Position numbers and translations under genes: made by a program. DNA of 64,000 bases, taken from assembly GCF_006334915.2 (NCBI RefSeq), contig NZ_VDMA02000004.1, positions 248,001-312,000 on the forward strand. Direction: 5' to 3'. The stretch is from Microbispora catharanthi (GTDB lineage: Bacteria; Actinomycetota; Actinomycetes; Streptosporangiales; Streptosporangiaceae). This document shows, in pieces, positions 15,933 to 53,689 of the stretch (position 1 is its first letter; each line of letters begins with the position of its first letter). The notes beneath the pieces are model-generated. The model made no database searches. It saw only the letters and a list, made by a program, of their open reading frames with translations, and was not told the DNA's origin.

Positions 15933-15989
15933 GTGGCCGGAGTCGGGGATACGTCCCGGGGGTGGACGATTCTCTGGCCACGCGGCGGT

Positions 15990-16592: not shown

Positions 16593-16806
16593 TGCTGTCT
16601 CCTCGGGATGAAGGGCCAACCGCACTCCCGCTCGGTTGCCGAGGCCCAAGGAAATCTCATCCGCAGCGCCCTGACCAGGCGTTTCGCGTCCGCTGCAGGT
16701 TCAGAAAGTTCGCCGTGTTCATCGGTGAACATGACAGTGATGGGGTGATTGCAGCCTGTTATCCTGCGGGCCCCGTTGTCCTCCTCATCAGGAAAGGAAG
16801 GACGAA

Positions 16807-18192: not shown

Positions 18193-18261
18193 AGCTCCGG
18201 GGACCAGACGACGAAGTGCCGTCTGGTGAGCCGGACAACACGGGGAGCGCCAACTCTCACG

Positions 18262-19149: not shown

Positions 19150-19171
19150 TCCGGCGCGACCGACAGCGAAC

Positions 19172-30207: not shown

Positions 30208-30762
30208 GTGCGTACCGGCTCTCTCGATACCCGTTTGATCGTTCTCCGCGGGAACTCCGGCTCTGGGAAGACTAGCGTCGCCCGGGCCGTGCGGGCCGCC
30301 TATGGCCGTGGCCTGGCTTTGGTCGGTCAAGACGTCGTACGGCGGGAGCTGCTGCGGGAGCGGGACGTACATGGCGGTGTGAACATCGGCCTCATCGACA
30401 CGATCGTCCGGTACTCTCTTGATCACGGGTATCACGTCCTGCTCCAAGGCATCCTCACCGCCAGCCGGTACGGGGCGATGCTGCAGTCCCTACGCCGTGA
30501 CCACGCCGGGACCACGCCTTCTTCTACCTGGACGTGTCCTTTCCCGAGACACTCCGGCGGCATGACAGCCGCCCCCAGCGGTCGGAGTTCACCCCAGACC
30601 AGATGCGGGAGTGGTACCGCGAGCGCGACCTGCTCCCGGACGGGTACGAGACGGTCATCGGCGAGGACAGTCCGCTGGAAGCGTCGGTGCGGCAGGTGCT
30701 GTGCCAAGCTCGTCGCCGACACCGATCCGGCCGTGGCTGGCCCGTCCTCCTACGGACGGTGA
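30208..30762 (+). pseudogene. P-loop nucleotide kinase-like gene with a frameshift
   Basis: A small AAA/kinase-type protein. From GTG 30208 the protein reads LIVLRGNSGSGKTSVARAVR (Walker A) and continues through QGILTASRYGAML. Near 30,510-30,525 the conserved sequence moves to another frame: FFYLDVSFPETLRRHD and then FTPDQMREWYRERDLL and ETVIGEDSPLEASVRQVL. The second frame matches what I recall of this kinase family, so at least one single-base indel is present. The exact C-terminus is uncertain: it may end in the first frame at 30762 or the second at 30854. The substrate is unknown. It is divergent from the equally frameshifted Nudix gene. Confidence 0.7.
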
Positions 30763-30896
30763 TCGAGATCGGTGTCAGCAAACTCCCCTCGCGCCCCCTG
30801 GTGGCCGACCGCGACGAGTTCTCGCCGAGACCGTCGCCGCTTCGAACCGCCTGAAGGCCGCGGTCAGCGAGGTCCCGCGTCGGGCTACCCGACAGA

Positions 30897-33800
30897 TCAT
30901 CGGGCCATGAAGACCTTCTTGGCTTCGGGGGAGTCGGGGGTCGAGACGTAAGCTTGGCCGACGGACAGTTTTTCCAAGGCCTGGGCCATGTCCTGGCCGG
31001 CTCGGCCGCGCAGGAAACCGGCGACTGTCTTGCTTTGCGGGTAGTTGCAGCGGAACGCCACCTTAGTGCCGGCGTTGCCGAGCACGTCCTTGTGGAAGTC
31101 GTCCACTCCCTGACTGGCCACCACCACGGCGACGCCGTATTTGCGGCCTTCCTTCATGATCTTCGGCAGAGTGACGTCCTTGGCCAGCCGGTGCGCCTCG
31201 TCCAGCACCACGGCCAGGCGCAGCTCACTCGTCTTTCCCCAGTGGAACATCTCCCGATAGACCTTGCGCAGCACGAACGCGGCGGCGGCCAGCTGTACCT
31301 GTTCCATCAGCGTATGCACGTCGAGCACCACACCACCGGTGAGCAATTCGCCGAACCGACCCTCGCCCGCGTTGTCCCGGAACAGGCCGAACTCGCTCAG
31401 CGGGCGAGTTCGCGCCGCGACGTTGCGGCCGTGCCCGGCACTTTCCTTCTGTTCCAGGAGCTTGGCGAACTCAGCCATAGTCGGCAGCCCCGTCGGGCCG
31501 TTGGCCGAACCGAAGCCGTGTCGCTGGTACAGCTCGCGGAGAACCTCGTAGACCACGTTCCGTTGGATCTCCCCCAGCGCGCTCACATAGCCGACGACCT
31601 CGGCCAGCTCCCACGCCGTCTGATTATATTTCTCGTGGCTGACGTCGGTCCGGAGCTCGAATGGGGAGAAGTCCAGCCCGTCGCCCGCGTCGACGACCGT
31701 TGCGTCGGCCGCGGGGTCGGCCGCCATGTCGCCGTGGAAATCGATGACCAGCGCTGGCAAACCTTGTTCGGCGAACGAGTTGAGAATACGCCGGGTGGTC
31801 ACCGACTTGCCCTGCCCAGGAATGCCGAGAACGAACATATGCGGACTGCCCGACGTGCTGATCCGCCACGTTAGATCGGCGGAGTTCGCGTCCTTCCCGA
31901 GCACTACCCGCACCTCATCGGGCCGTTTCTTAACCGACTGTGTCGCCGGTGTTTCCGTGGTGGATGCTGGCTCTGATTGCGGGGTAGCCAGGACCGGCTC
32001 GGACGGGGTGTCCACGGCCAGCTGGGCAACGGGTTTCGTAAGGTCCACGGTGGACACCGGGGCCCGGCTCGGTGTCAACGTGGCGATGCCTGCTGTGCGC
32101 AGTTTCGGAGCGGTCAATGCCTCGATCGATATCCCGCGATGCTCGCTCGGCAGGTCCGGCTCGCCGGCCAGGCTGACCACGTATCCCTGTTTAGAGATCT
32201 CTGGGCGAGTGCCGTCCTCGATCCGGGCGAACTGGCGTTCTGCTGCGGCCAGCCGCTCGGCACTGAGCAGATCCGCTTCGAAGGCCCGGTTCGCGTGGTA
32301 GCGCAGGATTCCCGCCAGCCGGGCCCGCTGCAGGTCGGCATCCAGACGGGGTTGGTCGTTGCCGAGGAAACCGTCCTCCAACATGGTCACCGTGGCATTG
32401 AGGCTGTCGACGATGTTCTCGGCGAGTTGATCTGGCGACGTGTCTTCCTTCAGCGGCTTTACCTCGACGCACTCGAACCTGATTGCCTGCCGGGTGGCGC
32501 GGACCAGAATCAGGTCGCAGAACCGTGCCTTTTCCTCCGGTGACTCCTTCTCCTGCGATTTCTTGCGCGTTATGCCGAACATTTCCTGGTGCATGTCGAC
32601 CGGTACGACGATCGTGTCCTTCAGATCGCCCCGGCTCTCCAACCAGGACACCAACGCCGCGAGGCTCACCGCCTCGGCGGCCAGGTCCGACTGACCGATG
32701 AGACGCAGCGCCAACCGCCCGGACACGAGTTGCATGGCCCGCAGGGTGCCGCGCACCGACTGGGTATCGTCGGCGAATCCCAGGCCGCGCATCGCGGTGG
32801 CAAGCAGGCGTTCGATCTCGGCCTGGTGTTTCGTGGTAACGGTTAGCCGAGGCCCGATTCCTTCCAGGAAATCGGGCGCGTAGTCCAAGATGTACGGCTG
32901 GTTTTTCTTCGGGCTCGACGAATACAGTTCCGGTCCGAGGTTGCGGTCGATCGTCATGACCCAGTCGGCCCGATCATGCGCCGCGGTCAGCGCCCGGCGT
33001 TCCGGCTCGCCGAGCGAGACGCGTAACGCAATGCCGTTTTCCGTCGCCAGTCCATGAGCCGCAGCGAGTGCGGCCTGGTGTGCCCGGTGCGCGTCGACCG
33101 CGTCCGCCGCACCGTCTCGCCGCTTTTCGCCCCGGTATTCCCGGAGTTGTACCGCTGGCATGGTTTCCCAATGCGGGCCGTCCGGGGTGTCTACCGTCCG
33201 GTTGCTGGTCGGGGTCAGCAGGTTGCGGAACGACGTGGTGCCGGCCGGGGTGGTCGAGCCGCCACCTGCCTCGACCACGGCCAGGTCGTTGACCACGCTT
33301 ATATGCGCCGGCGTGTCGTCCTTGGCCAGTCGGCCGAACGGCCGCACGCTCAGCCCGAGCGGCGGCTTCAAGTACGATCGTCCGCTCCCTACCCGGTATC
33401 CGCCGACGGCCCGCTGCAGGTCGGTCAGCGCGGGCAGCGGATCGGTATTGCCAGGCCGGGTGCTGTAGGCGGTGACTTCTGCGCGTCCGGCTAGTCTGGT
33501 GGCGTCGAAGTCCGCGGCCCGGTCGGTCAGTACCGCTTGGCGCAGCGCCTGGGCCAGCAGTTCGCCGGAGCCGGGGTTGATCGCCAGAAGCCGGACCGCG
33601 TCCGGCTTCGAGTGGGTCTCCCTGTAGTGCTCAATGCGCTCGGCGACCATCGCGGGCGGCACGTCAGTGGCGACGTCCCGCCAGTCCATGCCAAGCACGT
33701 CGAACACCGCCTGGATGGCGATGCCCGGTTCCTGTTCGTCGGGGGCGAGGTAGATCCCGGTGCCGACCGTTGCCTCCCTGGCGTGCACGAAGATGTCACC

Positions 33801-35798
33801 GGAGGTCGAGTGGGGCACGGCGAACGGCAGGTTGGCCGGGGTCACCCGGCGTACCAGGTCGGCGTCCACCATCGCGCGCCGTCTCGCCTTGTTCGGTTCG
33901 ATGTCCGCCAGTTCTTTTGCCCAGCCGGTGATCGCCTTGTCATATTCGGCCAGCCAGGTCAGCCGGAGCGGATGGAACGGCAGCACGACGACCGCCCGGA
34001 TCGGCCGGCCGCCGGCGATCGTAATGTCCAGTGTCAGCGTGTCCATCGCCAGCAACGCGCCCCGATACGTCGCGTCAGTCGCCGCGCGATCGAGCGCGTT
34101 CTTGTAGCTCTGGCAGTAGGACCGGACCTTGTCCAGGAGCTCCTCGGTCCAGTCGAGCGACTCCACGAGCCAACGGGCTTGATGCGCGCCGAGTAGTGCG
34201 TGGATCTCTTTGCGTTGTTTTGACAGTGCTGTCGGCAACGGGTCTTCGACGGGCTCCGTGTCTTCGGCCTGTAGCACCACACCCATGCGTCCGTTGGCGC
34301 GAAACGCGGTGGCTGTGCTGCCGTCCTTGAACAACTGGTGTTGCAGGTTGACCAGCACCGGGCTGACGCCGAGCAGTACCGTGCGCCGGCCACCGAGGCG
34401 TAGCGACACCGCGGTATGCGTGTCGTCCAGGCTGTAGGCGTCCTCGGTCAGGTCGTTCTGCCCGGCGAGAACCGCGTCCAGCCTGCCGAGCGCGAGCGCC
34501 CACGCCGAGGCACGCCGGGTCTCCCCGGTGATCAGGTCGGCCTCCCAGCGTACGGTGAACTGCTGGCTCTCGTCCTGAGCGAGCTCACCCTCCCTTCCCT
34601 GCAGCAACACCGGCTGGCCTGCTGTGTCTAGCCCGGTCACGCGCACCACGAACAGTGAGCCCTGTTCGAGGTCGGACTCGTTGAGCTTGATCTCGACGGT
34701 GGCAGTACGCCGGGAACCGGCAACGGTCACCTTGGCCTTCGGCCCGGTGTCGTCCCCGTCGCGCAGGTCCTCCGGTGGGAGCACCTCGACCAGCCACCGG
34801 TAGATCGCGTCGCTCTTAGCCGGGATGGTCTTCCACGTCACTCGCACCACGGCAGGGGACTCTTCGCCTGCCTCGGTATAGGGCAGGTCGCCAGGGTTGT
34901 CTTGCTTGAGCCGCGAGCTTTTCACCACCGCGCCGTTCTCCCGGAGGAACGGGTCGACCCGAACCTGATCCACCGCAACGGTTTCCGGTTCGGTCAGCGG
35001 CCATTGACTGAAGTCGAGGCCGGGCACGGCGGCCAGCTCTTCGGTCCACTCGGCGGGATTGGACAGATCTCGGTACGAGCCGGACAGGAACGTGGCAAGG
35101 TCAACGCGTACCGGACCATCCTTCAGCCGGGCATTGTTGAGCCGGTCGGACACCGAGGACACCGCTCTGGCCGGCCGGGAGATGGCCTTGACGCACTCAC
35201 TATTGCGGGCGAGCCGGTCTACGAGGTCTGGGCCGCCGAGATCCGGGATGAGGCCGACCATCGGCAACGATGCGCCAATGGTGTGCCAGGTCGGTTCGGC
35301 TGTGACTGCGGCAACATAGCGAGCCCAGGCCTCGGCCGGCCGGTTCCTGCCGAGTACGCTGGCGACCTTGTCCACTCCGACCCGAATATCGTTGTCTGGC
35401 AGTTCGCCAACCATCCTGGCACTGGCTGTACGCAGCAGCTCGACGACATCCTGGCGCTCGAAGCTGTTGTCCAGCGAACTGGCCGCAACGCCGGCGCCCA
35501 CTGGGACCATCAGTACCAGTTGACGCTCCTTGCGGTTGCGTAGTTCTACCGCGCGCTCGGTCGGGATCAGCAACTCGTCGTCGGCCTGGGCGCGGGCATC
35601 GACCAGGACGTGTATGTCAGCCTTGCCGGGCGCGAGGGCTCGACGCACCGCGTCGGCAAGGCGCTCGGCGTCGGCGTGGCGTAGGTTGTCCACCCGGACA
35701 CAGTGGCCGGGTTCGTGGCGACCGATCCGCTTGGTCAGTGTGGTTGCGATCCGGTCGATGACCAGATCCGGCAGCGTGGTGTCGGTCGGCTCAGGCAT
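30897..35798 (-). CDS. HerA-type ATP-binding protein, large defence-like subunit (DptH/MAD8-like)
   Basis: A 1633-residue protein, last gene of the five-gene operon. The C-terminal ~350 residues are a HerA/FtsK-like DNA translocase: Walker A GIPGQGKSVTTRR, then VIDFHGD, Walker B LAVVLDEAHRLAKD, and the motif VVVASQGVDDFHKDVLGN. The N-terminal ~1250 residues have no domain I can name; they include VLMVPVGAGVAASSLD and a long beta-rich middle. Size and the C-terminal HerA module resemble DptH of phosphorothioation-dependent restriction, and the protein I remember as MAD8 of the methylation-associated defence system. I chose ATG 35798, with GGGGGA upstream, overlapping the previous gene by 8 bp. 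It probably acts on invading DNA; no nuclease motif was identified. Confidence 0.85.
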   Translation of the reverse strand: MPEPTDTTLPDLVIDRIATTLTKRIGRHEPGHCVRVDNLRHADAERLADAVRRALAPGKADIHVLVDARAQADDELLIPTERAVELRNRKERQLVLMVPVGAGVAASSLDNSFERQDVVELLRTASARMVGELPDNDIRVGVDKVASVLGRNRPAEAWARYVAAVTAEPTWHTIGASLPMVGLIPDLGGPDLVDRLARNSECVKAISRPARAVSSVSDRLNNARLKDGPVRVDLATFLSGSYRDLSNPAEWTEELAAVPGLDFSQWPLTEPETVAVDQVRVDPFLRENGAVVKSSRLKQDNPGDLPYTEAGEESPAVVRVTWKTIPAKSDAIYRWLVEVLPPEDLRDGDDTGPKAKVTVAGSRRTATVEIKLNESDLEQGSLFVVRVTGLDTAGQPVLLQGREGELAQDESQQFTVRWEADLITGETRRASAWALALGRLDAVLAGQNDLTEDAYSLDDTHTAVSLRLGGRRTVLLGVSPVLVNLQHQLFKDGSTATAFRANGRMGVVLQAEDTEPVEDPLPTALSKQRKEIHALLGAHQARWLVESLDWTEELLDKVRSYCQSYKNALDRAATDATYRGALLAMDTLTLDITIAGGRPIRAVVVLPFHPLRLTWLAEYDKAITGWAKELADIEPNKARRRAMVDADLVRRVTPANLPFAVPHSTSGDIFVHAREATVGTGIYLAPDEQEPGIAIQAVFDVLGMDWRDVATDVPPAMVAERIEHYRETHSKPDAVRLLAINPGSGELLAQALRQAVLTDRAADFDATRLAGRAEVTAYSTRPGNTDPLPALTDLQRAVGGYRVGSGRSYLKPPLGLSVRPFGRLAKDDTPAHISVVNDLAVVEAGGGSTTPAGTTSFRNLLTPTSNRTVDTPDGPHWETMPAVQLREYRGEKRRDGAADAVDAHRAHQAALAAAHGLATENGIALRVSLGEPERRALTAAHDRADWVMTIDRNLGPELYSSSPKKNQPYILDYAPDFLEGIGPRLTVTTKHQAEIERLLATAMRGLGFADDTQSVRGTLRAMQLVSGRLALRLIGQSDLAAEAVSLAALVSWLESRGDLKDTIVVPVDMHQEMFGITRKKSQEKESPEEKARFCDLILVRATRQAIRFECVEVKPLKEDTSPDQLAENIVDSLNATVTMLEDGFLGNDQPRLDADLQRARLAGILRYHANRAFEADLLSAERLAAAERQFARIEDGTRPEISKQGYVVSLAGEPDLPSEHRGISIEALTAPKLRTAGIATLTPSRAPVSTVDLTKPVAQLAVDTPSEPVLATPQSEPASTTETPATQSVKKRPDEVRVVLGKDANSADLTWRISTSGSPHMFVLGIPGQGKSVTTRRILNSFAEQGLPALVIDFHGDMAADPAADATVVDAGDGLDFSPFELRTDVSHEKYNQTAWELAEVVGYVSALGEIQRNVVYEVLRELYQRHGFGSANGPTGLPTMAEFAKLLEQKESAGHGRNVAARTRPLSEFGLFRDNAGEGRFGELLTGGVVLDVHTLMEQVQLAAAAFVLRKVYREMFHWGKTSELRLAVVLDEAHRLAKDVTLPKIMKEGRKYGVAVVVASQGVDDFHKDVLGNAGTKVAFRCNYPQSKTVAGFLRGRAGQDMAQALEKLSVGQAYVSTPDSPEAKKVFMAR

Positions 35799-37437
35799 CA
35801 CGATCCCCCAGTGGGTGGCGAACGATCTGTTCGGAAAAGTCGTCGGACAAGCTGTCGAAGCATCCGAGCAGTTGCAGCCTGCGCTTGAATGCCGCCAGGT
35901 TGGCCGCCGCGGCGGCGCGTGCCTCCGCGCCGTCCAGAAACGCCGGAGGCGAGTCAACGAGAATGCCGAATCGGTCGCGAAGCTCCCGCAACAGGTCCTT
36001 GAGCGATATGGTCGGCCGGACCGACATATCGGGCCGGACGAACACCGTCATCAGCAGAATCTGCAGTAGTTCGTCTGTCGGCGCGTATCGCCACGACCGG
36101 CGGCTATTGGACGACCCGGTGAGAATTCCGTACGGCTTACGCAGCCCGCCGACCGATCTGAACCAGCCTACCGCGTTTGCCGTTGCGCGATCTTGGTTGA
36201 CAAACTCAAGAACGTCTAGCAGTTTGTTAAGTTCGCTTTTATCGGAGTGTTGTGTTCTGTCTAGGAAGTCGGCTTCATCTTCCGTGATGTGTTCAGCGCT
36301 GCGCTGGTTGATTGCCGCGATGTCGTAGAGTTGGCTCATCGCAAACATTTCTGTGACGTCGTGTTCGCGTAGTTCCGCAAGTTGGGCCAATTTATCTGGG
36401 TCGGAAAGCGCTTCACGTCGCTCTCGCTCGTCCGGGATCCGCTGAATCGCCAACTCGACGATCATGAGAGTCATGCGGTCGCGGAAAGTGAGCCTAATCT
36501 GATTGAGATCGCGCTCCACACACAACCGGGACAGCCTGTCCGAATCGTCGTTTATTCCGCCGGTGAAGTCGCAGTACAGTTCGATCGGCGACTTCGGGCG
36601 GTCCTCAACCATGTCCGCAGGTGGGGTACCGGTGCGCAACAGTTCTCGTCCCGCCGCGTTAACCCGAAGTGTGAGAGTGAAGACACCGAGGGCGAGTAGC
36701 CCGGCAAAGGTGGACATTAACGCAGCTGTCGGCAACCGGTTGGCATAGGCAAGGAGGTGTGCGAGAAGCATTTCCCCCAGACGCTCCGTTACGCCGGGAA
36801 GCGGGTTCGGCACTTGCGATTCTTGCTTAAATTCCCGCGCATCGCCCATCTCGAATCCTTCGAGGAAACGAAACTCGAGGAGTGCGCTGATGTCCAGCCT
36901 GCTCGGGTCGATCAGCTCGGGTTGCCATTTCGGCTCGTGTCCGATCCCCAGACCATGGCCAATATGCTCCGCGATGAGCCTGCGGAGTTCACCGGTCGGG
37001 TTGCCCGCTGTTCGGCGGGCTACCTGGGTGCGTAGAAGTTGATAGGCGAAGTCGTCGATATAGCGGTGCCGGGTTCGTGTCCGGGGTACGCCCGCCCGAT
37101 AGGCCGCCAGGGTGAGGGGAGCAACCGACAACATCTGTTCGTCATTGTGCGCCTTGCCGACAGTGCCCATGTCGACGATGCAGGAGCGCAGCCAGCCGTC
37201 CATCAGCTCCCGGGCGTCCGGTGAATTGAAGCCAGTCATGTGCTCGCTGTTGAGCAGCCGGTCCCGATAGCCGGCGTAGTCCCGTTCGTTGGTCAAGAAC
37301 CTGGCCGATCGGCCGCCCTTGACACACGCCTCGAACAGATGGGGCAGCACGCGGTCCACATCCGTGTCCAGTGTGCTGAAAATCGTCAGCGGCCGGTACA
37401 GATAGGTGCTCATCGCCTTGGTCAGTTTGATGGTCAT
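35791..37437 (-). CDS. Hypothetical defence-operon protein (DptG/MAD7-like)
   Basis: A 548-residue protein, fourth in the operon. It has no signal peptide. Hydrophobic stretches near 232-258 (LLAHLLAYANRLPTAALMSTFAGLLALGVFTLTL) could be membrane-associated but are more likely core helices. The C-terminus reads LLRELRDRFGILVDSPP and then RRLQLLGCFDSLSDDFSEQ, which resembles the end of proteins that sit between DptF-like and DptH-like genes. I name DptG/MAD7 only as likeness by place and size. ATG 37437 overlaps the kinase stop in an ATGA, so the two proteins should be made in matched amounts. Confidence 0.78.
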   Translation of the reverse strand: MTIKLTKAMSTYLYRPLTIFSTLDTDVDRVLPHLFEACVKGGRSARFLTNERDYAGYRDRLLNSEHMTGFNSPDARELMDGWLRSCIVDMGTVGKAHNDEQMLSVAPLTLAAYRAGVPRTRTRHRYIDDFAYQLLRTQVARRTAGNPTGELRRLIAEHIGHGLGIGHEPKWQPELIDPSRLDISALLEFRFLEGFEMGDAREFKQESQVPNPLPGVTERLGEMLLAHLLAYANRLPTAALMSTFAGLLALGVFTLTLRVNAAGRELLRTGTPPADMVEDRPKSPIELYCDFTGGINDDSDRLSRLCVERDLNQIRLTFRDRMTLMIVELAIQRIPDERERREALSDPDKLAQLAELREHDVTEMFAMSQLYDIAAINQRSAEHITEDEADFLDRTQHSDKSELNKLLDVLEFVNQDRATANAVGWFRSVGGLRKPYGILTGSSNSRRSWRYAPTDELLQILLMTVFVRPDMSVRPTISLKDLLRELRDRFGILVDSPPAFLDGAEARAAAAANLAAFKRRLQLLGCFDSLSDDFSEQIVRHPLGDRDA

Positions 37438-40400
37438 GGCGCGTCCTCCCGCACGATCTGGCCGCCGATGGCCTTTGCCCGCAGCGAACGGCCGGAGCCG
37501 TCGATGATCCGTACCGCGTGTGCTGGTTCCCGACGCAGCCGGTTGCCGAACGCAGTGACCTCCTGGCGGATCGCCTCCGAAGCCAGGTCACCGAGGATCT
37601 CCCCGTCGGCGGCGCGCAGCAGCAACTCCGCGGTGTCCAAGGTGATCCGGAGTTCCGCGCCGGAGGAATGTCGCAGCACCAACAGGTCGGGGAACGACTC
37701 GATGTAGCGGGAGCGTGCTCCGCTTGCGGCCAGCGCGAACTCGGTCGAATCCAATTCCTTAATTACCACGATGGCGCGTACCGCCGGCGCGTCGTACATC
37801 TGGTCCCGCAATGCGAGGCGGACGCCGTCGTAGCCGACGAAGCCCAGCACTCTGGACAGTCCGGCGAGGAACCGTGGCAGCGCTTGCTCTGGCGTGTCCA
37901 GGGCACCGAGGTATTCACCGAGATGCCGGTAACTACGCACCTCCAACCGTCCGGATACAGTGCCCCACTGGCCGAGGAACAATGCCCGCTTGAGTCGACG
38001 TATATCCGCATCGAGGATAGTGTGCAGGTCGGGGATGAGGTCTTCTCTGGCTCTCGCGGCTCGGATGGCGCCGGGCGCTGGGAGTCCGGCCGGGTCGAGT
38101 TCGGCCCATTCCTGGAGCAGGTTGTCGCTGCTGGCGCCGGCGAAGGTCAGACCAGGCAGTAACCGGGCGTCGGTGGCCGGGTTTTCGTCCGCCTCGCGTT
38201 CCGAGTGGACTTCGTCGCAGGACAGGTCGCCAGTGATCAGCCAGGCGAATGCGGACCGGACGTCCCGCACGGTCGCCCGCCGACGGCGGCGCAGGTGGCT
38301 GGTGAGTACGAGCTCCATGACCGCCGCCTTGGTGGCCGGTGCTCGTAGATCCGTGGCGTTGCGGAGAATCGGGCAGACGTCTCGAGACACGCAGTCGGCG
38401 CAGTCCGACCAGCGGAAGTCGGTGGTGAACAGATCGAGAATAGCTGCCGCAAGATCAGGCGCTTCGCCGTTTGCGTCGGCCTTTTTCGGCATCGCCAACG
38501 CCCGTTGCTTGAGGTCGACGAGTACCACCCGGGAGTCCGGGGATGCGTCGCCTCGGCGTTGCTTGGACAGTTCCGCAGCGACGTCCGGGTACAGGTCTTC
38601 GTTTTCAGTGAAGAACTGGGTGACTCGGCCGTCGTTCGCGGCGATCAGCACCGTGCACCGGTTCCGGTCCTCGCCGTCGGCTAAGTCGAGCGCCCGATAC
38701 AGCATCTCGTCGGAGGACAGCGCGCCGTTGGACTCCGAGGCGTCGTAGACTGCGACGAACGTGTGGCCGTCGAGCCGTTTGACCCAGCCGGCCTTGTCTT
38801 CGTGTACCTTTTCCGCCTGCCGAGCGTCCAGTGCGTCACCCACCTTGACAAGGAACGAGGTCTTGCCGTCACCGGGGTTACCGCTCAGCACCACGACGTC
38901 GAGCTTCTTGTTGAGTATTGCTGGCAGCAGTTCGGTGTCCAGCCGGGTTTTCGCGTAAGTGTCGTGCGCGAAAACGTCGTCCAGGCCGCGGTTTCCGGCG
39001 TTGCCGATGCCGCTTTCCCGGTACAGCCCACGCAGTGCGGCCACCGTGGGATTCACCTTGCGTTTGTCCGTAGTGGACGGAGTGCCCGGCTCGGTGAGCA
39101 GTCGCGCGAAATCTGCGGCGCTCTGCGGTCGGTCAGCCGGGTCGTACGACACGCCCTGGTAGAGCGCGTCCAAAAAGGCGCCGCCGAACCGTAGCCGGTC
39201 CTCATCGGACGGCGGCACCAACGTCCTGCGGCCTGACAGATCGGTACTGGCATAGGGGTAGCGGCCGAGCATTGCGTGCAGGATCGACGCGGCGGCGGCA
39301 TACAGGTCGGCGGCGGGGGACCAAGCGCGGCGCTCCCACACCTCCGGCGCGGTGAATGGTGGCGAGCCGACCGCGGAATGGGCGTCGTCGACGTGTGCGG
39401 CCAGCCCGAAGTCGATCAGCCGGGCGGCGCCATCGTCCCGCACGATGATGTTGGCGGGGCTGACGTCCCTGTGGTACAGGCCCTGCTGGTGCGCGTCGCC
39501 GAGGCCAGCAAGCACGTCCAGCGCGATACGCCGGAACTCGTCCCCGGTCGGGGTTTCGCGCGTGACGAGTTCTTTGAGCGTAGTGCCCGGTACGTATTCC
39601 TGGACCAGCACGCCCGGTTCTGGTTCGGGGCGCAGATCGTACACCCGGGCGCAGAACCGGCTGCGCAGCGTGTCGGTGTTTTGATATTCGTCGAATGCCT
39701 GTGCCCATGACACGCGATCCGGTTTCAGGTATTTGAGCGTGCGCAGCTCACCCTGTAGCTGTTCGTCGGTGGCGAGCCAGGTGACGGCCCATGCGCCCTC
39801 GCCGAGTTGGTGCTTCAGCCGGTATCTGTCGGCTACCAGCTGGCCTGCTATCGGTGTCGACGCGTCCTCGGTGATCGCTAATGCCGTCGCCTTGTCCGGC
39901 GCGGTCGCTGAGGCCACTTCCGCGGCTTCCGGTCGGTCGTTGTAGTCCGGCGCGAGACAGCGGACCATCAGTTCACCTATCTCCGGATAGGCCGCCGCGC
40001 GTTCCCTGGCCTGGTCGTGGTCCGGCGTCTCGTCCTGGTCGCCGTGTATCCACAGCACCAGGGACAGCGCCAGGCTGTAGACGTCATCTTTGGTGCCGAA
40101 GAATTCCATGGTGGCGCCCGGGGCGCGAAACGGCGTCGACGGATGGTCGTCGAACAAGCTGGGGGCGATGGTTTCCACGCTGGGGATCCGCGCCCGGCTG
40201 AAGTCGCGGAAGCGGACCCGGTCGTCGCCGGTGATCTCGATGTACCGGGGCCGGAGGGCTCGATGCATGATCTCCTTGGCGTGCACCGAGGTCAACGCCG
40301 CGAACGCGTCGTGCACGACGGGTTTGGCGATTTCCGGCGGAATCCGGTTTTCCTGATCGGTCGGTGTCGGACGGTCACCGCTGAGCTTCCACAGACTGAT

Positions 40401-41240
40401 GCCACTCAGGTCAGGCACGATCGGGGTGACCCGGTATCCCTCCCAGTCGAACCAGTCGCGTACATGCCAGGTACGATCTTCCTTGGCCAACAACGTAAGC
40501 GCGTCATGCTCGCGTTTGGCGAGCAGTTCCGCAGCGGGCCGGTCAGTGGCGTTGGCCACTGAAACGCAGTGCAGGAACACCAGTTCGCCCGCTGGGTTGC
40601 TACCGGCGTAGACCCGGGCGTTGCCATCGGTCCCAAGTAGTCCGGCGACTTTGTACTGCATTATCTGCTTCGGGGCCTCGGCCGGGTTTCGCGGACCGAG
40701 ACCGAGCAGGTAGCTCATCGCTTTCGGACGCAGTGCGGACATCGTGTCCGGCAGGGCGGCGTCCCGGGCGGTCAGCATGGCAGCCGCAGCGTCCAGCGTG
40801 ACCACCTTGTCCTCGCCGAGATCGCCGGTCCCGGACAGGTCGATCGACGAGTGAGACATGACCACATGGCCGGTGACCGGGCGAACCCCGCGGGGCAAGT
40901 TGGCCTGCGCCGCAGCCCACCCGCCGACCTTCGCGCGCAGTCGGCCGGCCAGCACCCGGGCCGCGTGCGCCACCTGGCCGACGGGATCGGACCGTTGCTC
41001 GCCGTTGACGTACCATGCTACTTCGCCCGCGACCACGTGTGGGCCCCAGGATTTCTCCTCGCAAACGTAGATGCCGTTGACGCCGACCACGATCAGGTCC
41101 AAATCGACCGGGTCGGTGTGCGTCGGGATCTGGCGGCCGGCGATGACGTCCCAGTCGTCCGGTAGCTCGGCCGCGAGCAGGCGGGCCGTCTTTTCTTCGC
41201 CTGGGCCGTGCCAGTCGCTGAGCACGTGCAGCCGCGCCAC
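37434..41240 (-). CDS. NERD-pseudokinase-kinase-ATPase fusion (MAD6/PglW/DptF-like)
   Basis: A 1268-residue multidomain protein. Residues 1-~170 are a NERD nuclease-like domain with Asp in VDLDLIVVG (~48) and EEK at 61-63. Residues ~200-450 resemble a kinase but read MHRALRPRYIEI where HRDLKP is expected and FRDFSRARIP where DFG is expected, so it is a pseudokinase. Residues ~470-720 are an intact kinase: GEGAWAVTW, YHRDVSPANIIV at ~589-600, IDFGLA at ~609. Residues ~740-1268 are a P-loop ATPase with SGNPGDGKTSF at ~786-796 and a Cys cluster DCADCVSRDVCPILRNA, as in DptF-like proteins. It probably senses infection and signals by phosphorylation. It starts at GTG 41240, one base after the helicase stop. 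Confidence 0.87.
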   Translation of the reverse strand: MARLHVLSDWHGPGEEKTARLLAAELPDDWDVIAGRQIPTHTDPVDLDLIVVGVNGIYVCEEKSWGPHVVAGEVAWYVNGEQRSDPVGQVAHAARVLAGRLRAKVGGWAAAQANLPRGVRPVTGHVVMSHSSIDLSGTGDLGEDKVVTLDAAAAMLTARDAALPDTMSALRPKAMSYLLGLGPRNPAEAPKQIMQYKVAGLLGTDGNARVYAGSNPAGELVFLHCVSVANATDRPAAELLAKREHDALTLLAKEDRTWHVRDWFDWEGYRVTPIVPDLSGISLWKLSGDRPTPTDQENRIPPEIAKPVVHDAFAALTSVHAKEIMHRALRPRYIEITGDDRVRFRDFSRARIPSVETIAPSLFDDHPSTPFRAPGATMEFFGTKDDVYSLALSLVLWIHGDQDETPDHDQARERAAAYPEIGELMVRCLAPDYNDRPEAAEVASATAPDKATALAITEDASTPIAGQLVADRYRLKHQLGEGAWAVTWLATDEQLQGELRTLKYLKPDRVSWAQAFDEYQNTDTLRSRFCARVYDLRPEPEPGVLVQEYVPGTTLKELVTRETPTGDEFRRIALDVLAGLGDAHQQGLYHRDVSPANIIVRDDGAARLIDFGLAAHVDDAHSAVGSPPFTAPEVWERRAWSPAADLYAAAASILHAMLGRYPYASTDLSGRRTLVPPSDEDRLRFGGAFLDALYQGVSYDPADRPQSAADFARLLTEPGTPSTTDKRKVNPTVAALRGLYRESGIGNAGNRGLDDVFAHDTYAKTRLDTELLPAILNKKLDVVVLSGNPGDGKTSFLVKVGDALDARQAEKVHEDKAGWVKRLDGHTFVAVYDASESNGALSSDEMLYRALDLADGEDRNRCTVLIAANDGRVTQFFTENEDLYPDVAAELSKQRRGDASPDSRVVLVDLKQRALAMPKKADANGEAPDLAAAILDLFTTDFRWSDCADCVSRDVCPILRNATDLRAPATKAAVMELVLTSHLRRRRRATVRDVRSAFAWLITGDLSCDEVHSEREADENPATDARLLPGLTFAGASSDNLLQEWAELDPAGLPAPGAIRAARAREDLIPDLHTILDADIRRLKRALFLGQWGTVSGRLEVRSYRHLGEYLGALDTPEQALPRFLAGLSRVLGFVGYDGVRLALRDQMYDAPAVRAIVVIKELDSTEFALAASGARSRYIESFPDLLVLRHSSGAELRITLDTAELLLRAADGEILGDLASEAIRQEVTAFGNRLRREPAHAVRIIDGSGRSLRAKAIGGQIVREDAP

Positions 41241-41241
41241 G

Positions 41242-42849
41242 TCACTTCACCTCTTTGTGATTGTTTATCTTGTAGTCATCCGGCCAGGTCCAGCGCCGGA
41301 CGTCGGGGCTCAGGGCCGCCAGTCGGTCGACGTGGGCCGTGGACTTCGTGTAAGTGATAAGCAACTGGTCCGCGGCGCGGGTGGCGCCGACGAACCCGAC
41401 ACGTTCGCGTTGCCTGGTCGGCTCGTCGATCCCCGCCGGTAAGGTTTCCAGCCCGACCAGGAACACTATCGGGAACTCGTACCCCTTCCCGGAATGCACG
41501 GTGATTACCTTCACCGTCGACGTGCTGGAGTCGAATCCGGACGGGTCGTTCCGGTCGAACACTTGGAACGGAATATTGGCCGAGGTCAACGCGGCACGCA
41601 ATTTTGTAAGGCCGCGCCATTGCGTGAGCAGGACGGCGATCTCGCCTGGCTGCCGCCGTCCGTCGGCGAGCAGAGCGGCGATTTCCCAAACGACGCAGTC
41701 GAGTTGCGCGTTCTTTGAGTCCGCCCAAATCAGATCGACCGGTTGCCCGTCCGGCGCACCGTCGATCCCGGCCACATGTTGCCCGGTCAGTACGCTTGCG
41801 GCGCGCAGCACTTGTTTCGTGCTGCGGTACGGCCGAGCCAGCGTGTGGCGGACGACGTCGCGGCCAGTTAGCGCCGAGGGCAGATCGACGTCTCGGTACA
41901 GCCCCTGCGCCTGGTCACCGACGAGCAACGCGCCCCCACGGCCGGGCCGGACGGTGTCGAGCGCGAACTGTAGCCAAGCCGGGTCGAAATCCTGTAACTC
42001 GTCGACAAGCAATGCGTCGAAGGCCTGCGGAATCCCGCGTGCCCTGGCCTTGGTCAGATCCTTGGAAGCGCCGTCGCCGCCATTGAGATCCATCCGGAAA
42101 CCAAGCCGGTGGGCGAACTTGCCGACTGTGGTCACCAGCACCGACGGGTCGTTCACCAGTCGCGTCACATACGGCACCAGCGCACGGTTGTACACCAGCA
42201 CGGCGATCTCCCAGTCCGGATGAACCCGGCGCAGTTCCCGTGCCCGGGCGGCGAGCAGCAACGTTTTCCCGCTGCCCGGCGGCCCGGTCGCCACGGCCAC
42301 GTCGGAGATCGGCGCCAGCGCGGTCACGGCCTGCGAGGTGTCCAGTTGGAACCGGGCTGCGGCCCGGTCCGCCGCCCCCGGGTCGGTGGCGCCGGTGCGC
42401 CCGGACTTGCTGAACACCACAGACGGTGCGAGGCGGTCGACGATGGCGGTGAACTCGGCGTCCGGGATCGGCCGCCGAGGCAAGTGATCCGGCCAGGCCG
42501 GATCGGTGAGGTCCTGGCGGGACAACACGATCCGCTTGGCATGCGGCTGGTCCGGGTCGAGTAGCCGTCCTGCCGCAGCGCCGAGTACCACCGCCGCGCC
42601 GACCGCGGGTGGGCCGAGACCGGTGAGCGACTCGCGTAACTCCGCGCGTTTCCGGTTGATCGAGACCCAGGGCTGCCGGTCATCCGACGACGTCCCGTTC
42701 GGGTCGAGGTCGATGGCGTACAGCCCGGCCATGCGATCGATGAGCAGCAGATCGGGTCGGTCAGGTCCGTCCGCGACCAGCAGCACGGTGCCCTCGCGAC
42801 CGGACACCGCGGCCGCAGCCTCCGTGAACACCGGATCGATCCTGAACAT
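41242..42849 (-). CDS. UvrD/Rep-like superfamily 1 helicase with divergent N-terminal domain
   Basis: A 535-residue protein. Residues ~1-165 are a divergent alpha/beta domain (LLLIDRMAGLYAIDLDPNG) at the place where NERD domains often occur. The helicase part has Walker A ATGPPGSGKTLLLAAR (~188-203), Walker B ALLVDELQDFDPAW, LLVGDQAQGLYR (motif III), RPYRSTKQ (motif IV), VITVHSGKGYEFPIVFLVGLE (motif V) and FVGATRAADQLLITY (motif VI). All motifs look active. ATG 42849 follows GGGAAGG; an adjacent in-frame TTG at 42852 is the alternative. It lies 24 bp downstream of the first gene of the operon and one base before the kinase gene. Confidence 0.88.
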   Translation of the reverse strand: MFRIDPVFTEAAAAVSGREGTVLLVADGPDRPDLLLIDRMAGLYAIDLDPNGTSSDDRQPWVSINRKRAELRESLTGLGPPAVGAAVVLGAAAGRLLDPDQPHAKRIVLSRQDLTDPAWPDHLPRRPIPDAEFTAIVDRLAPSVVFSKSGRTGATDPGAADRAAARFQLDTSQAVTALAPISDVAVATGPPGSGKTLLLAARARELRRVHPDWEIAVLVYNRALVPYVTRLVNDPSVLVTTVGKFAHRLGFRMDLNGGDGASKDLTKARARGIPQAFDALLVDELQDFDPAWLQFALDTVRPGRGGALLVGDQAQGLYRDVDLPSALTGRDVVRHTLARPYRSTKQVLRAASVLTGQHVAGIDGAPDGQPVDLIWADSKNAQLDCVVWEIAALLADGRRQPGEIAVLLTQWRGLTKLRAALTSANIPFQVFDRNDPSGFDSSTSTVKVITVHSGKGYEFPIVFLVGLETLPAGIDEPTRQRERVGFVGATRAADQLLITYTKSTAHVDRLAALSPDVRRWTWPDDYKINNHKEVK

Positions 42850-42873
42850 CAAGAAGCCTTCCCATGTCGCTAC

Positions 42874-43632
42874 CTACTGATCGGTTCGTCCGAAAAGCCG
42901 CTGCTCCTCGTCCAAAGTGGACAGAACGGCGGCGGCAGCGTCCCTTTCCGCGCGGTCCTTGGGCGCGAGTTGGTCCAGTTCGTCCTGAATGGCCTCGCGG
43001 GCGGTCGCCGGGTCGATGCCGTGGTTCAGGCCAGGCACCCCAATGCCCAGCTTCATCACCAGATCGGAAATCTGGGCCCGTTGCTGTTCGCGACTCGACC
43101 GCAACACTTCGCTGCTGGCCGCCCGCAACCCGGCCAGCCTGTCGAGCAGCACTAGTAGCACTCGGAGCACGTCGACCCGGGCGGACCGGGTGCCGTGGAT
43201 CCGCAACCACGCGGGCCAGGACGACAACGCCAGATAACCGCGCGCCGGCATGAGCTGGGTGGTGAGGGCTGGAACCACCCACATCGACCGGGTGCTGCTT
43301 TTCGCCCGATAGGCGCGCAGCTCGTCCCGACGAATACTGGCCAATGCCCGCGGCGCAAGTTCGGAGCCGAAGTATGCGCGGCAGAACTCGGCGATCAGCG
43401 CGGGATTCGCCGGTACCCCCAACTCGCTCAATGCGTCCACCGCCTGCTGGCGCGCCGGTGTGGCGGCAGAGCTCGCCGTGCCGGTCGTGGCTCGGCGCAC
43501 GGACTGAGCGGCCGCGTCGAGTGCTGCGCCCACCCGCTCGGCGGCCTGCTGGTCAAGGGCGGGTGTCTTGGTCAACGCGGCCAGCTGACGTAGCAGCTCG
43601 TCAATGTCCAACGGCTGTGGCGCTTCCTGCAT
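42874..43632 (-). CDS. Hypothetical protein, first gene of the defence-like operon
   Basis: A 252-residue protein that I do not recognise. It is mostly helical and Ala/Arg-rich. A short beta-like segment with STRSMWVVPALTTQLMPARGYLALSSWPAWLR lies in the middle, followed by a long helix (VDVLRVLLVLLDRLAGLRAASSEVL). There is no signal peptide, Cys cluster or clear catalytic motif. I chose ATG 43632; a longer frame to 43719 reads across the phased repeats and is unlikely. No good Shine-Dalgarno lies upstream, so the three CCAGACTT copies touching the start may govern transcription or translation. It could be a small regulator or adaptor for the operon, which is inference. Confidence 0.72.
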   Translation of the reverse strand: MQEAPQPLDIDELLRQLAALTKTPALDQQAAERVGAALDAAAQSVRRATTGTASSAATPARQQAVDALSELGVPANPALIAEFCRAYFGSELAPRALASIRRDELRAYRAKSSTRSMWVVPALTTQLMPARGYLALSSWPAWLRIHGTRSARVDVLRVLLVLLDRLAGLRAASSEVLRSSREQQRAQISDLVMKLGIGVPGLNHGIDPATAREAIQDELDQLAPKDRAERDAAAAVLSTLDEEQRLFGRTDQ

Positions 43633-43635
43633 ATT

Positions 43636-43663
43636 CCAGACTTTACCAGACTTTCCCAGACTT
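43636..43663 (-). repeat. Three phased direct repeats upstream of the defence-like operon
   Basis: Exact CCAGACTT (plus-strand reading) at 43636-43643, 43646-43653 and 43656-43663, a strict 10-bp period or one helical turn. The nearest copy is 3 bp from the first gene's ATG. The spacing fits a cooperative operator bound on one DNA face. Confidence 0.7.
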
Positions 43664-43800
43664 CGGCGAGGAGAGCCGAGTGCTGCTGGTGTTGGTGATT
43701 GCATGCACCGTGCCACCACGGGGATCGCGTTATCCCGCCGAGTCGTTACACTGAAGGCGCGCGCTGGTTGACCGCCGTTTGCGCCGCCGACCGCGACTGG

Positions 43801-43830
43801 TCAAGGCCACGTCCGGGGAGGTGGCCTTGA
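43801..43830. promoter_or_regulatory. Perfect 10-bp inverted repeat upstream of the defence-like operon
   Basis: TCAAGGCCAC (43801-43810) and GTGGCCTTGA (43821-43830) with a 10-nt loop, about 170 bp upstream of the operon start. No T-tract on either strand. It could be an operator or the end of an insertion remnant; the IS256 tail begins 25 bp away. Confidence 0.4.
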
Positions 43831-47114: not shown

Positions 47115-48212
47115 TCACAGAAGCCCGCGGAGTGTCACTTCGGCCGTGTCCACGGCTGTGGTGAGAGCGTGCATGTGGGCAGGTGAGAGCTTCCCGGCAC
47201 CGAGCCCTGACGCGGTCAGTACGTCGTGGAGTTTCTGTCTTTGCTCACTGGCCAGGCGGGAGCAGACCGGGTGGTGGTTCAGGACGTCGCGGGCGGCGTA
47301 GGCGTCGAGGATGGCCACGTCCACGACGGCGTCCCGCAGAAGGGCGGGGCAGGGGCTGGTCCGGTCGTGGGCCAGGTCGAGTGCGGTCAGTCCGACTCGG
47401 GCCTGGAACGCCGCGGTCGCGGGGTCGGGCGGGGCGATCAGAGCGAGTGCCTCCTGCAGGGCATGCTCCAACTCCGGCTGCGGCGCTGGTGACGTCGCTG
47501 GGCGGCAGCAGATGCGCAGGAGGGCCGCGATGGCGTTCTCCCATGGTTCCGCGGGGACGGTGGATTCGATCGTGGCGCGAGCCTGCTCGTCGAGGCCGCG
47601 TTCCATCAGTGACATGATCATGATTTGACGGCCGTCGAGGAGGCGATTGCCGACGCCGCGATGCGCGGCCATGGCTTCGGCGGCCTCGGTCCAGCGGCCG
47701 ATCCGCGCCAAGGCCCTGGCGCCGTCGATGAGCGCCGTGACCCACAGCTCCTCGCAGACCTTTCGGTGGTCCGCCTCTGTGTCGATCAGCACCGACAGAT
47801 CCACGTTGTGGTTGCGGATCTCGGCTGTGCCGCGCTGCTGAGCAGCGCGGTACAGCCGCGTGAGCAGGTCGTAGGCGCCTTCGCCGTCACCTTCGCGGAT
47901 CAGCAGCCGGGCGATGTTCACCAGAGGCATGAGTGCCATCACGGCGATGTCCCCGGTGAGGTTGCCCGCTTCGGCGAAGACCTGGTGCTGCCTCCAGCAC
48001 AGCTGCGCGGCCAGGTCCGGCATCCCGACGTCGGAGGCGATCAGCGCGGCGTAGTTGAGGACCCCGCTGGCGCGGGCCACCATATCGCGGTGGCTCGCAT
48101 TGGCGGGCTCGACGGTCAGCTCGGTGAGGTGGCTGAGGCGTTCGGCCAGGGGTAACCCGGCCGCCTTGGGCCGGCGGACAAGCGGGATCCGGCTGGCTAT
48201 CGCGGGGATCAT
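47115..48212 (-). CDS. Helical accessory protein of the FxLD lanthipeptide cluster
   Basis: A 365-residue protein made almost wholly of helices in TPR-like pairs (MPDLAAQLCWRQHQVFAEAG, AYDLLTRLYRAAQQRG, LARIGRWTEAAEAMAAHRGV). I do not know its function. It starts at ATG 48212, 4 bp after the methyltransferase stop, so it is the last gene of the lanthipeptide operon. Proteins of this size and composition often occur next to FxLD-system methyltransferases in actinomycetes. It could be an adaptor or regulator in maturation. Confidence 0.7.
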   Translation of the reverse strand: MIPAIASRIPLVRRPKAAGLPLAERLSHLTELTVEPANASHRDMVARASGVLNYAALIASDVGMPDLAAQLCWRQHQVFAEAGNLTGDIAVMALMPLVNIARLLIREGDGEGAYDLLTRLYRAAQQRGTAEIRNHNVDLSVLIDTEADHRKVCEELWVTALIDGARALARIGRWTEAAEAMAAHRGVGNRLLDGRQIMIMSLMERGLDEQARATIESTVPAEPWENAIAALLRICCRPATSPAPQPELEHALQEALALIAPPDPATAAFQARVGLTALDLAHDRTSPCPALLRDAVVDVAILDAYAARDVLNHHPVCSRLASEQRQKLHDVLTASGLGAGKLSPAHMHALTTAVDTAEVTLRGLL

Positions 48213-48216
48213 CGGC

Positions 48217-50268: not shown

Positions 50269-50319
50269 GGTCGTGGGCGCTCCTTCTCAGTGGGGGCTGG
50301 GGTCGAATGACGGGCGGGG

Positions 50320-51393
50320 TCAGGTGATCAGCAGGGCCCTGGCCCAGCCGGTGGTGTTCGTGCCGTCCAGGGCCAGTTGCGCGCCGGCACGGCCTTCCAT
50401 GAATCCGGGCCTTGACAGCCGGTCGAGGTCAGCGGCCAGGCGATTTGTCAGGTCCTCGATCAGCGGCGTGTACCGGTCCGGGTCGGGGCTGTCGTCGGCG
50501 ACGACACGGGCAACGGTCAGCAGGCCGGCCCAGCCGTGGCACAGCGAAGCATCGGTGACCCGGTCAAGGCGGGCCGGGTCGGCGAGGACGCGCACGACGG
50601 TGTCCTCTGCCGCGAGCTGGCGGGCCGGGTCGTTCAGGGCGATGGCAGCCAGCTGCCGGGTGCGGGCGATGCCGAGTTCTCCGTAGCACCACGACGGGCG
50701 CGCGACCTGCAGCGTGGGCGGCTCGGGATCGGACAGCTGGTCGCGGGTGATCCAGTAGCAGCAGCCGTACCTGTCCAGCCAGCGCGCGACCACCTCGATG
50801 GCATCGTGCTGTCCCGGCACCTGGACGTCATGCCGGGCGGCGAGGGACAGCACCGCCAGGGGGCCGGCGATGCCGTGTGCGACACCGTTGTTGCCGTGTC
50901 CGCCGGGCATCTCCTCATCGGCGGGCCCGGCATCCGACCACCAGCCCGGCAACTTCCGGCCCTGGATGCGGACCGGCCGGCACAGTGAAACCAGGTAGTC
51001 CAGCACCTCTTCCAGCAGTGGCGAGGCGCTGTCGCGGGTCAGCAGCAGCGCGCCCAGCCCGGTCAAGCCCCGGATGAGGTCGAACTCCGCGAGATGCGGC
51101 AGCGCCCCGCGGGCCTGCCGCCGCCGTGCTGCGGCCAGTTGGGCGGCCACGACGCGGTCGACGGCGTCCCGGACGTCGCGGTCGGCGCACCCGGCACGGC
51201 TGAGCACGAACTCCAGTGCCAGGGCGCCGTGGAACAACGACGCGTTGCCTCCGGCACTGACACCGCCCGCAACCGCCTGCGCCAAGGTCTTTCGAGCGGA
51301 TGCGAGGTCACCGCGCTCGATGTGCAGCAGCGCCACCCCGAGCGCGCCCTCGGACAAATCCTGCGTGCGGGGAAGAGTCGCCGTCGCGGTCAT
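50320..51393 (-). CDS. Lanthionine synthetase C family protein (cyclase)
   Basis: A 357-residue LanC-type cyclase that joins Cys thiols to dehydrated Ser/Thr to make (methyl)lanthionine rings. The zinc ligands are all present: C236 in SWCYGELG and C285-H286 in LCHGWAG. Other conserved Gly/His motifs are GHGNNGVAHGIAGP (~165-178) and DLIRGLTGLGALLL (~105-118). Length is close to the family norm. Its ATG overlaps the LanB stop in an ATGA, so LanB and LanC are coupled. Confidence 0.9.
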   Translation of the reverse strand: MTATATLPRTQDLSEGALGVALLHIERGDLASARKTLAQAVAGGVSAGGNASLFHGALALEFVLSRAGCADRDVRDAVDRVVAAQLAAARRRQARGALPHLAEFDLIRGLTGLGALLLTRDSASPLLEEVLDYLVSLCRPVRIQGRKLPGWWSDAGPADEEMPGGHGNNGVAHGIAGPLAVLSLAARHDVQVPGQHDAIEVVARWLDRYGCCYWITRDQLSDPEPPTLQVARPSWCYGELGIARTRQLAAIALNDPARQLAAEDTVVRVLADPARLDRVTDASLCHGWAGLLTVARVVADDSPDPDRYTPLIEDLTNRLAADLDRLSRPGFMEGRAGAQLALDGTNTTGWARALLIT

Positions 51394-53424: not shown

Positions 53425-53506
53425 CACCCACACTCCGTTCTTGACAGGAAGGGAGCGGGCCGGAGGAGTCATCCGTCCGGCCCGCGCCGTCGGGGCTGGA
53501 CCTGGG

Positions 53507-53689
53507 CTACGAGGTGGTGCAGGCGCTCGGGCAGGAGCTCCCGCAGTTGTCGCCGGTGCTGCACAACAGCACCGTCTCGGTCGCCGGCGTGTTCTCGATG
53601 AAGGTGATGTCGAGCTGGAACGGGTCGTCGGCGTCGTCGCCGACGTGCTGGCGCGGTTCGGCGCTCCGCGCGATGGTCTGCGTGCTCAT
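53507..53689 (-). CDS. FxLD family lanthipeptide precursor
   Basis: A 60-residue RiPP precursor. The leader contains FQLDITFIE at 24-32, the FxLD motif that marks the class. The C-terminal core from about residue 38 has four Cys (43, 49, 53, 57) and several Ser/Thr (S44, T45, S51, S52, S55, T58, T59, S60) in LLCSTGDNCGSSCPSACTTS, ready for lanthionine formation. D47 and N48 could be targets for the PCMT-type methyltransferase. ATG 53689 follows AGGAGCAAAGG. It is the first biosynthetic gene, ~80 bp upstream of LanB, and lies below a DUF397 gene. The structure of the product and its ring pattern cannot be read from sequence. Confidence 0.88.
   Translation of the reverse strand: MSTQTIARSAEPRQHVGDDADDPFQLDITFIENTPATETVLLCSTGDNCGSSCPSACTTS

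Follow-up and report, generated by a model that had tools for sequence, protein, structure and literature searches.

The 64,000-nucleotide stretch of Microbispora catharanthi DNA analysed here (contig NZ_VDMA02000004.1, positions 248,001 to 312,000; the window, in what follows) carries a minus-strand operon of five genes, the last three of which are, by homology, an effector set of the MAD6/MAD7/MAD8 type known from the methylation-associated defence system (MADS) and part of the wider DndFGH superfamily. The reading we favour, at about even chances, is that the operon is a mobile, self-contained restriction module against invaders, in which a UvrD-type superfamily 1A (SF1A) helicase takes the position that the methylase set holds in MADS. 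The computed support lies in gene content, homology, motifs, clade structure, the lack of a dedicated methylase, sharing at the size of a unit, and purifying selection; from this we infer a defence function, a sensor role for the helicase and an order of events. The five genes, in operon order, are:

42874..43632, minus strand: gene 1, 252 aa, no known domain
41242..42849, minus strand: gene 2, 535 aa, SF1A UvrD/PcrA-like helicase
37434..41240, minus strand: gene 3, 1268 aa, MAD6/DndF-like
35791..37437, minus strand: gene 4, 548 aa, MAD7/DndG-like subunit
30897..35798, minus strand: gene 5, 1633 aa, MAD8/DndH-like protein

The initial annotation had described five minus-strand genes at these positions with near-contiguous junctions and 24 bp as the widest gap. 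Using a simple caller for open reading frames (ORFs) made for this analysis, all five ORFs were recovered, and the junctions from gene 1 to gene 5 measure +24, +1, -4 and -8 bp. Every gene is open, with 0 internal stops, both in the window and in a copy of the operon in Nonomuraea spiralis (N. spiralis; genome G578). Between these two copies the ratio of non-synonymous to synonymous substitution rates (dN/dS) for genes 1 to 5 is 0.21, 0.28, 0.14, 0.11 and 0.09, and across the three pairs of loci compared it spans 0.09-0.28. In two of the three pairs the lowest dN/dS belongs to gene 5 (0.087 and 0.089); in the pair G472/G684 gene 5 has the highest (0.181). The operon genes are under purifying selection, and the five-gene block is not due to chance.

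The domain calls of the initial annotation were likewise borne out: an SF1/UvrD helicase in gene 2, a chain of NERD, pseudokinase, kinase and P-loop core in gene 3, and a C-terminal HerA ATPase in gene 5. In gene 3 the NERD nuclease carries an EEK motif and the pseudokinase HRA; the Ser/Thr kinase that follows has HRD and DFG, by which this second kinase domain is active-looking. The P-loop core is SspF-like, with a GNPGDGKT Walker A, an ND motif and a CxxC...C insert that possibly binds Zn. All of these features of the core are given for DndF in Rakesh et al. 2024 (PMC10853773), where DndG is described as three winged helix-turn-helix (wHTH) domains. DndH combines, in the same description, a restriction endonuclease (REase) domain, a HerA/FtsK motor with DEAH, sensor Q and upstream R, an inactive SNF2-C, a helix-turn-helix, beta-sandwiches, a target recognition domain and an inactive methylase. 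In gene 5 a REase D...ExK motif lies at about residues 1064-1117 and a HerA/FtsK translocase at about 1290-1633, with GIPGQGKS, DEAH, sensor Q and upstream R all aligned.

Profile searches place the set near MADS without making it MADS. Gene 4 scores 435.3 bits against NF047733 (antiphage_MADS7), over the cut-off of 410, and is nearer MAD7 (E 4.3e-130) than SspG (1.7e-8); its best sequence match in the PDB has E 0.48. Gene 3 reaches 348.5 bits against the NCBIfam MADS6 model, below the cut-off of 460, and its kinase region also matches PglW (66-72 bits) and the PADLOC PD-T4-6 kinase models. The N-terminus of gene 5 is weakly MAD8-like (55.9 bits against a cut-off of 175), and the protein further matches mad8 and DndH models. 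The likeness to MAD6-7-8 and to DptFGH/SspFGH that had been noted from gene order and domains is thus supported by the MAD7 score and the SspF, mad8 and DndH matches; the proposed search against named families puts gene 4 over the MAD7 cut-off and leaves genes 3 and 5 under those for MAD6 and MAD8. Neither a methylase nor HsdS is among the Pfam, NCBIfam and PADLOC matches listed for the five proteins, the PADLOC matches examined being the best 25 of 40 for gene 3 and the best 25 of 33 for gene 4.

How widespread is this arrangement? The MAD7 model matched 3 of 396 genomes drawn evenly from the phylum, the window genome included. With the MAD7 protein of the window as query, 9 of 345 genomes of the order matched (5 at full length, 4 partially), and in the class a profile built from four window-type MAD7s found 14 of 394 genomes, 8 with full-length and 6 with partial matches; the three genome samples overlap. 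A scan of genome contigs with two patterns yielded 5 loci from 85 candidate stretches, namely the N. spiralis copy (L028) and four further loci (L029-L032). G694, a weak match with no MAD7 or HerA profile match in its stretch, was dropped, and the remaining partial MAD7 matches are MADS loci and are counted as such. The resulting dataset comprises 24 loci, flanks included, each with genes for the kinase, MAD7 and HerA: 13 in a MADS clade and 11 in the clade of the window. Scans of viral contigs with UvrD and MAD7 alignments confirmed no relative; on plasmids MAD7 had no match and UvrD only partial ones, in 30 records that all fall short of 80% coverage.

A tree of 23 of these loci was rooted with a kinase-less DndFGH locus (G096, one of 3 among 392 genomes matched by the PADLOC SspG model); G923 was omitted for having a broken HerA gene in its contig. 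The window clade, here 10 loci, separates from the 13 MADS loci with 100% support. Within it the six UvrD-bearing loci form a subclade at 100%, with 98% at a node inside, and the four loci lacking UvrD form their own at 100%. In the outgroup itself (L091:15480 to L092:4983), a gene with a C5-cytosine-methylase-like start lies directly 5' of the DndFGH genes. The NERD, kinase, P-loop, REase and HerA motifs are kept in all 10 aligned window-clade loci, the exception being HGD for HRD in the G896 kinase. GNPGDGKT, ND and CxxC...C are likewise present in all 10, as against GNAGDGKT and NE in the MADS loci. Of four further MAD7s from the window clade that were scored, three exceed the MAD7 cut-off and G896, at 388.2 bits, does not; in G684 the kinase homologue exceeds the MAD6 cut-off (512.1 bits) and MAD8 does not (64.2). 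One practical consequence is that automated MAD7 labels can overcall MADS: four of five window-clade MAD7s pass, with no MADS methylase 5' of them.

With profiles of our own, a MADS-type N6-methylase was found 5' on the same strand in 13 of 13 MADS-clade loci, 7.6-19.7 kb from MAD7 (in L032 and G647 the stretch ends within the gene), and in 0 of 11 window-clade loci. For UvrD the picture is reversed: 6 of 11 window-clade loci (the window, G578, G684, G472, G534 and G896) have the gene at -1 to +2 bp from the kinase, against 0 of 13 MADS loci. The Fisher P values for linkage, 0.003 and 4e-7, take no account of relatedness and carry no weight as proof here. For MADS-locus genes other than the counterparts of genes 3-5 and the profiled methylase, the MAD and HsdS names are presumptive, assigned by position. 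The recurrent unit is smaller than the five genes first proposed: UvrD, kinase, MAD7 and HerA recur together in 6 genomes. The five-gene block as a conserved unit had to be given up, gene 1 being in position only in the sister copy of N. spiralis; five sister loci lack UvrD as well as gene 1.

Could the operon then be the orphaned and decaying effector set of a MADS that lost its methylase? Its kinship to MADS and the passing score of gene 4 would fit. We consider this very improbable and rejected it: the loci form a separate clade with a different HerA domain, their genes are open and under purifying selection as judged by dN/dS, and the set is shared across genera at the size of a unit.

The HerA domain adds a second contrast. 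In the gene 5 body the UvrD-bearing loci and MADS have mean identities of 25.4, 19.1, 24.0 and 24.5%; in the HerA domain the figure is 18.2%. Within each clade HerA is the best conserved part of gene 5, with 52.2% identity between UvrD-bearing and UvrD-less loci and 69.4% within MADS; the window-clade domain is 24.1% identical to that of the DndH outgroup. Among solved structures it matches DptH (7es4, E 9.4e-8), and for the C-terminal part of one MADS relative DptH was not among the PDB matches at E 0.1. A swap of the motor domain for a DptH-type one in the window clade may be proposed provisionally, since it rests on contrasts of identity and branch length and on one DndH outgroup. The contrast fits the capture of HerA/FtsK domains described by Rakesh et al. 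(PMC10853773).

Evidence for movement comes from comparing whole loci. The block shared with N. spiralis is:

30710..43805: match to N. spiralis, 97.6% over 13,107 bp, taken as the unit moved

The rest of the window has no match to the 40 kb compared in N. spiralis. Similarly, the four-gene blocks of G472, G534 and G684 match one another over 12.0-12.2 kb at 85-95% identity (G472/G534 12.0 kb at 94.7%, G472/G684 12.0 kb at 86.0%), their flanks differ, and the matches end just outside the operon, bar one 112-bp piece. The window and G472 belong to one genus, N. spiralis and G534 to another, so that both close pairs, window/N. spiralis and G472/G534, span genera. This suggests that the operon moves horizontally between genera as a 12-13 kb unit that includes no methylase.

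If no methylase travels with the operon, is one borrowed? The operon might read methylation laid down in trans by another resident system, be it type I restriction-modification (RM), BREX, ARMADA, MADS or a housekeeping methylase, so that the methylase is merely unlinked. We regard this as a serious contender, if on balance a rather unlikely one. The modification systems that adjoin the module are of several kinds. ARMADA-like sets comprising an SNF2-type helicase, a PglX/IIG-type methylase, a YprA/DruE-like helicase and a GajB-like UvrD adjoin 3 of 11 loci: G472 (L023-L025), G842 (L060-L062) and G923 (L071-L072). The label follows from matches in PADLOC and from homology with the genes of G472, judged against PMC12458937, with the full PADLOC check made on G472. 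That locus also has pPIWI-RE next to it. In N. spiralis, BREX type 2 genes (PglW, PglX, BrxC) begin 1.6 kb 3' of the operon; G534 has TmtA and a type I RM, G684 a neighbouring MADS locus, G896 a candidate methylase about 12 kb off (DPPY motif only), and the window a type I RM. Borrowing of marks has moreover a published parallel in SspFGH, which works with the marks placed by another SspBCD (PMC8092258).

However, these nearby systems are of unrelated kinds, and no single modification partner is conserved across the window-clade loci. The flanks of G939, G783 and G769 hold no methylase detectable by PF02384, PF00145, phmmer with six methylase and helicase queries, or a scan for [ND]PP[YFW], PADLOC not having been run there. 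The unit shared across genera holds no modification system either. Searched in five genomes, the MADS methylase query found a full-length match in G684 only, a partial one in G578, another, of 22 bits, within the type I RM of the window genome, and nothing in G472 or G534. The G684 match lies 3' of the module and belongs to the neighbouring MADS locus with its own MAD6-8; in the window the sole match to the MADS-methylase profile is a type I HsdM about 27 kb off on the other strand. The initial annotation put the nearest methylases about 16 kb away, which needs correcting: among the families sought (PF02384 and PF00145), the nearest DNA methylase gene ends at 9830, about 21 kb off, and it is HsdR that lies at about 16.7 kb. 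That locus (5699-14220) is type I RM-like and contains a pair of N6-methylase genes, of which the first has a specificity-subunit-like region at its end, together with HsdR (11035-14220); a Ser/Thr kinase with tetratricopeptide repeats follows.

A dedicated phosphorothioation (PT)-dependent restriction set of the ordinary DndFGH/SspFGH kind is the least probable of the explanations weighed here. SspF, SspG and DndH profiles do match and the HerA domain is DptH-like, but gene 4 is closer to MAD7 than to SspG, gene 3 is a NERD-kinase fusion, and DndC (TIGR03183) is present in none of the five window-clade genomes searched, on which ground the dedicated system was rejected; that search covered neither the six later genomes nor SspB, SspC and SspD separately. 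The claim that the operon stands without a dedicated modification set therefore holds, with a MADS-type methylase 5' in 0 of 11 loci and DndC in 0 of 5 genomes; MAD1, MAD3, MAD4 and MAD5 are absent from the matches listed for the operon and were not sought genome-wide.

How would such a module act? DNA binding would fall to the MAD7/DndG-like subunit and to the N-terminal body of gene 5, while UvrD would recognise and unwind ends, gaps and replication intermediates typical of invading or replicating phage or plasmid DNA. The helicase would thereby supply the non-self signal, a role that methylation marks play in MADS. The kinase and pseudokinase of gene 3, together with its nucleotide-binding P-loop core, may gate activation; HerA would then translocate DNA past the gene 5 PD-(D/E)XK nuclease for cleavage, with gene 3 contributing its NERD nuclease and kinase as possible back-up effectors. 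With a helicase in place of a DNA-marking enzyme, virus DNA may be told from the cell's own in another way. A tentative extension, somewhat short of even chances, is that a MADS/DndFGH lineage traded epigenetic discrimination for one based on a helicase, UvrD licensing the HerA-REase on DNA structure, along with the swap to a DptH-type HerA. If true, this would be a restriction system with no need of host modification. In MADS, phages reportedly escape epigenetically.

The same proteins could be arranged into abortive infection, in which the kinase and NERD nuclease hit host targets once infection is sensed and the DNA-processing subunits are the sensors. HRD/DFG of the kinase (HGD in G896) and (D/E)xK of NERD are kept in the clade, the PD-T4-6 and PglW kinase models match, and fused domains of this sort have been proposed as suicidal co-effectors (PMC10853773). 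On the other hand, the REase and HerA motifs are kept as well and constraint is strongest on gene 5 in two of the three pairs, if weakest in G472/G684, which makes direct DNA restriction at least as good a fit. We think abortive infection unlikely.

The favoured reading, a self-contained module with a helicase in the methylase position, gains from the company it keeps: in relatives, genes in the vicinity of the module have matches to BREX type 2, pPIWI-RE, type I RM, MADS and ARMADA-like sets. Several observations pull the other way. Since 5 of 11 window-clade loci have no UvrD, the effector set does not require it. In 8 of 11 loci some modification system or candidate lies within the fetched flanks, and marks could therefore be borrowed in trans. 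All 11 window-clade genomes have at least one N6_Mtase match, which says little because 13 of 14 control genomes have one too, and a C5 methylase occurs in 6 of the 11. The AlphaFold models of gene 4 (mean pLDDT, the predicted local distance difference test, 40) and gene 5 (50.1, best in parts of residues 10-270) are too weak for a check of the triple wHTH and of the inactive methylase domain, respectively. In the literature searched, experiments on the window clade were not found.

The two leading genes invite separate comment. Gene 2 has GPPGSGKT, DELQD, GDQ, RPYRS and GATRA; in the PDB it comes closest to PcrA/UvrD and more weakly to GajB. Its N-terminal domain of about 170 aa looked by eye like a degenerate NERD, an idea discarded at an hhalign probability of 1.2%. 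Gene 1 has no PADLOC match, and its Pfam and NCBIfam matches all fall below cut-off. It was found leading the operon only in the window and in the N. spiralis copy, which is 97-99% identical. A search of 395 other genomes of the phylum turned up homologues in 3, at 34-43% identity (blastp). There they head a different operon, a co-directional trio conserved as judged by size, order and N-termini (L041, L042 and L043). In L042 (4081-8890) the homologue heads an unnamed four-gene operon, as in L041 and L043, with products of about 290-390, 370, 490 and 440 aa; the last member is an SF1/AAA_11 helicase, and neither Pfam nor PADLOC gave a match for the first three. The trio in L041 sits next to an HmaA gene. 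Gene 1 precedes an SF1 helicase in the window operon as in L042, and an accessory role alongside such helicases is plausible. Directly 5' of gene 1 lies a possible operator, seen by eye and not listed by the repeat finder:

43633..43670, minus strand: putative operator, three imperfect direct repeats of about 10 bp with an AGTCTGG core

A different common element (CTTGTACAA), also seen by eye, stands 5' of the UvrD gene in G472, G534 and G684.

Beyond the operon, window positions 15927-19154 are 94% identical to 1665-4891 of G472, in the same genus and beside defence genes, which suggests a shared chromosomal site with changing cargo. A lanthipeptide/thiopeptide-like cluster at 47115-53689 includes a lantibiotic dehydratase N domain, a LanC-like protein, a dehydratase-C fused to a PCMT-type protein O-methyltransferase (48217-50268) and, as a possible precursor, a peptide of 60 aa rich in Cys, Ser and Thr at its end (53507-53689). 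In N. spiralis, a 1594-aa protein with a caspase-like match precedes the operon.

Placing the operon among known systems brings out what is shared and what is its own. Gabija GajB, ARMADA ArmD and PADLOC C3a187 are, like gene 2, GajB-like SF1A helicases in defence operons, but the partners and the N-terminal region of gene 2 differ, and GajA is not among the listed matches of the five proteins. BREX type 2 PglW has the same NERD-pseudokinase-kinase N-terminal half as gene 3 (PMC12839542), whose C-terminal half is instead a DndF core; PglX, PglZ and BrxC/PglY are not among the matches listed for the operon. To MADS the operon is tied by the kinase-MAD7-HerA order, overlapping or closely spaced genes, homologous subunits and a gene 4 over the MAD7 cut-off; it differs in having no MADS methylase and UvrD in the upstream place, in a kinase at 348.5 of 460 bits and a MAD8 N-terminus at 55.9 of 175, and in a HerA domain 18% and gene 5 bodies 19-25% identical. 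With SspFGH (PMC8092258) it has in common a three-gene effector, a SspF match and a weak SspG match, and it is set apart by the kinase fusion, UvrD and DndC-type PT synthesis in 0 of 5 genomes. SspFGH damages DNA that lacks its mark and is toxic in the absence of that mark (PMC8092258), and therefore a host without the cognate mark must discriminate otherwise or keep the operon off until triggered.

The closest precedent is the stand-alone DndFGH of PMC10853773: a DndF core with NERD, pseudokinase and kinase, a DndG-like partner and a DndH-like REase plus HerA, again without a modification module of its own. A kinase-HerA module of this kind is therefore not new, since that paper proposed DndFGH as a stand-alone system and gave fusions of NERD with an inactive and an active kinase to DndF, and the window clade may sit inside the set in its supplement. 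Of the unlisted variant first suspected, what stands is the partnership with UvrD: the UvrD-linked clade was not found among the best-ranked literature matches, and the word 'UvrD' is absent from the main text of PMC10853773. How effectors of the DndFGH type spare their own chromosome without a linked modification enzyme is a question raised in that same paper, and the compact four-gene version common to genera, with its additional UvrD gene, makes it directly testable.

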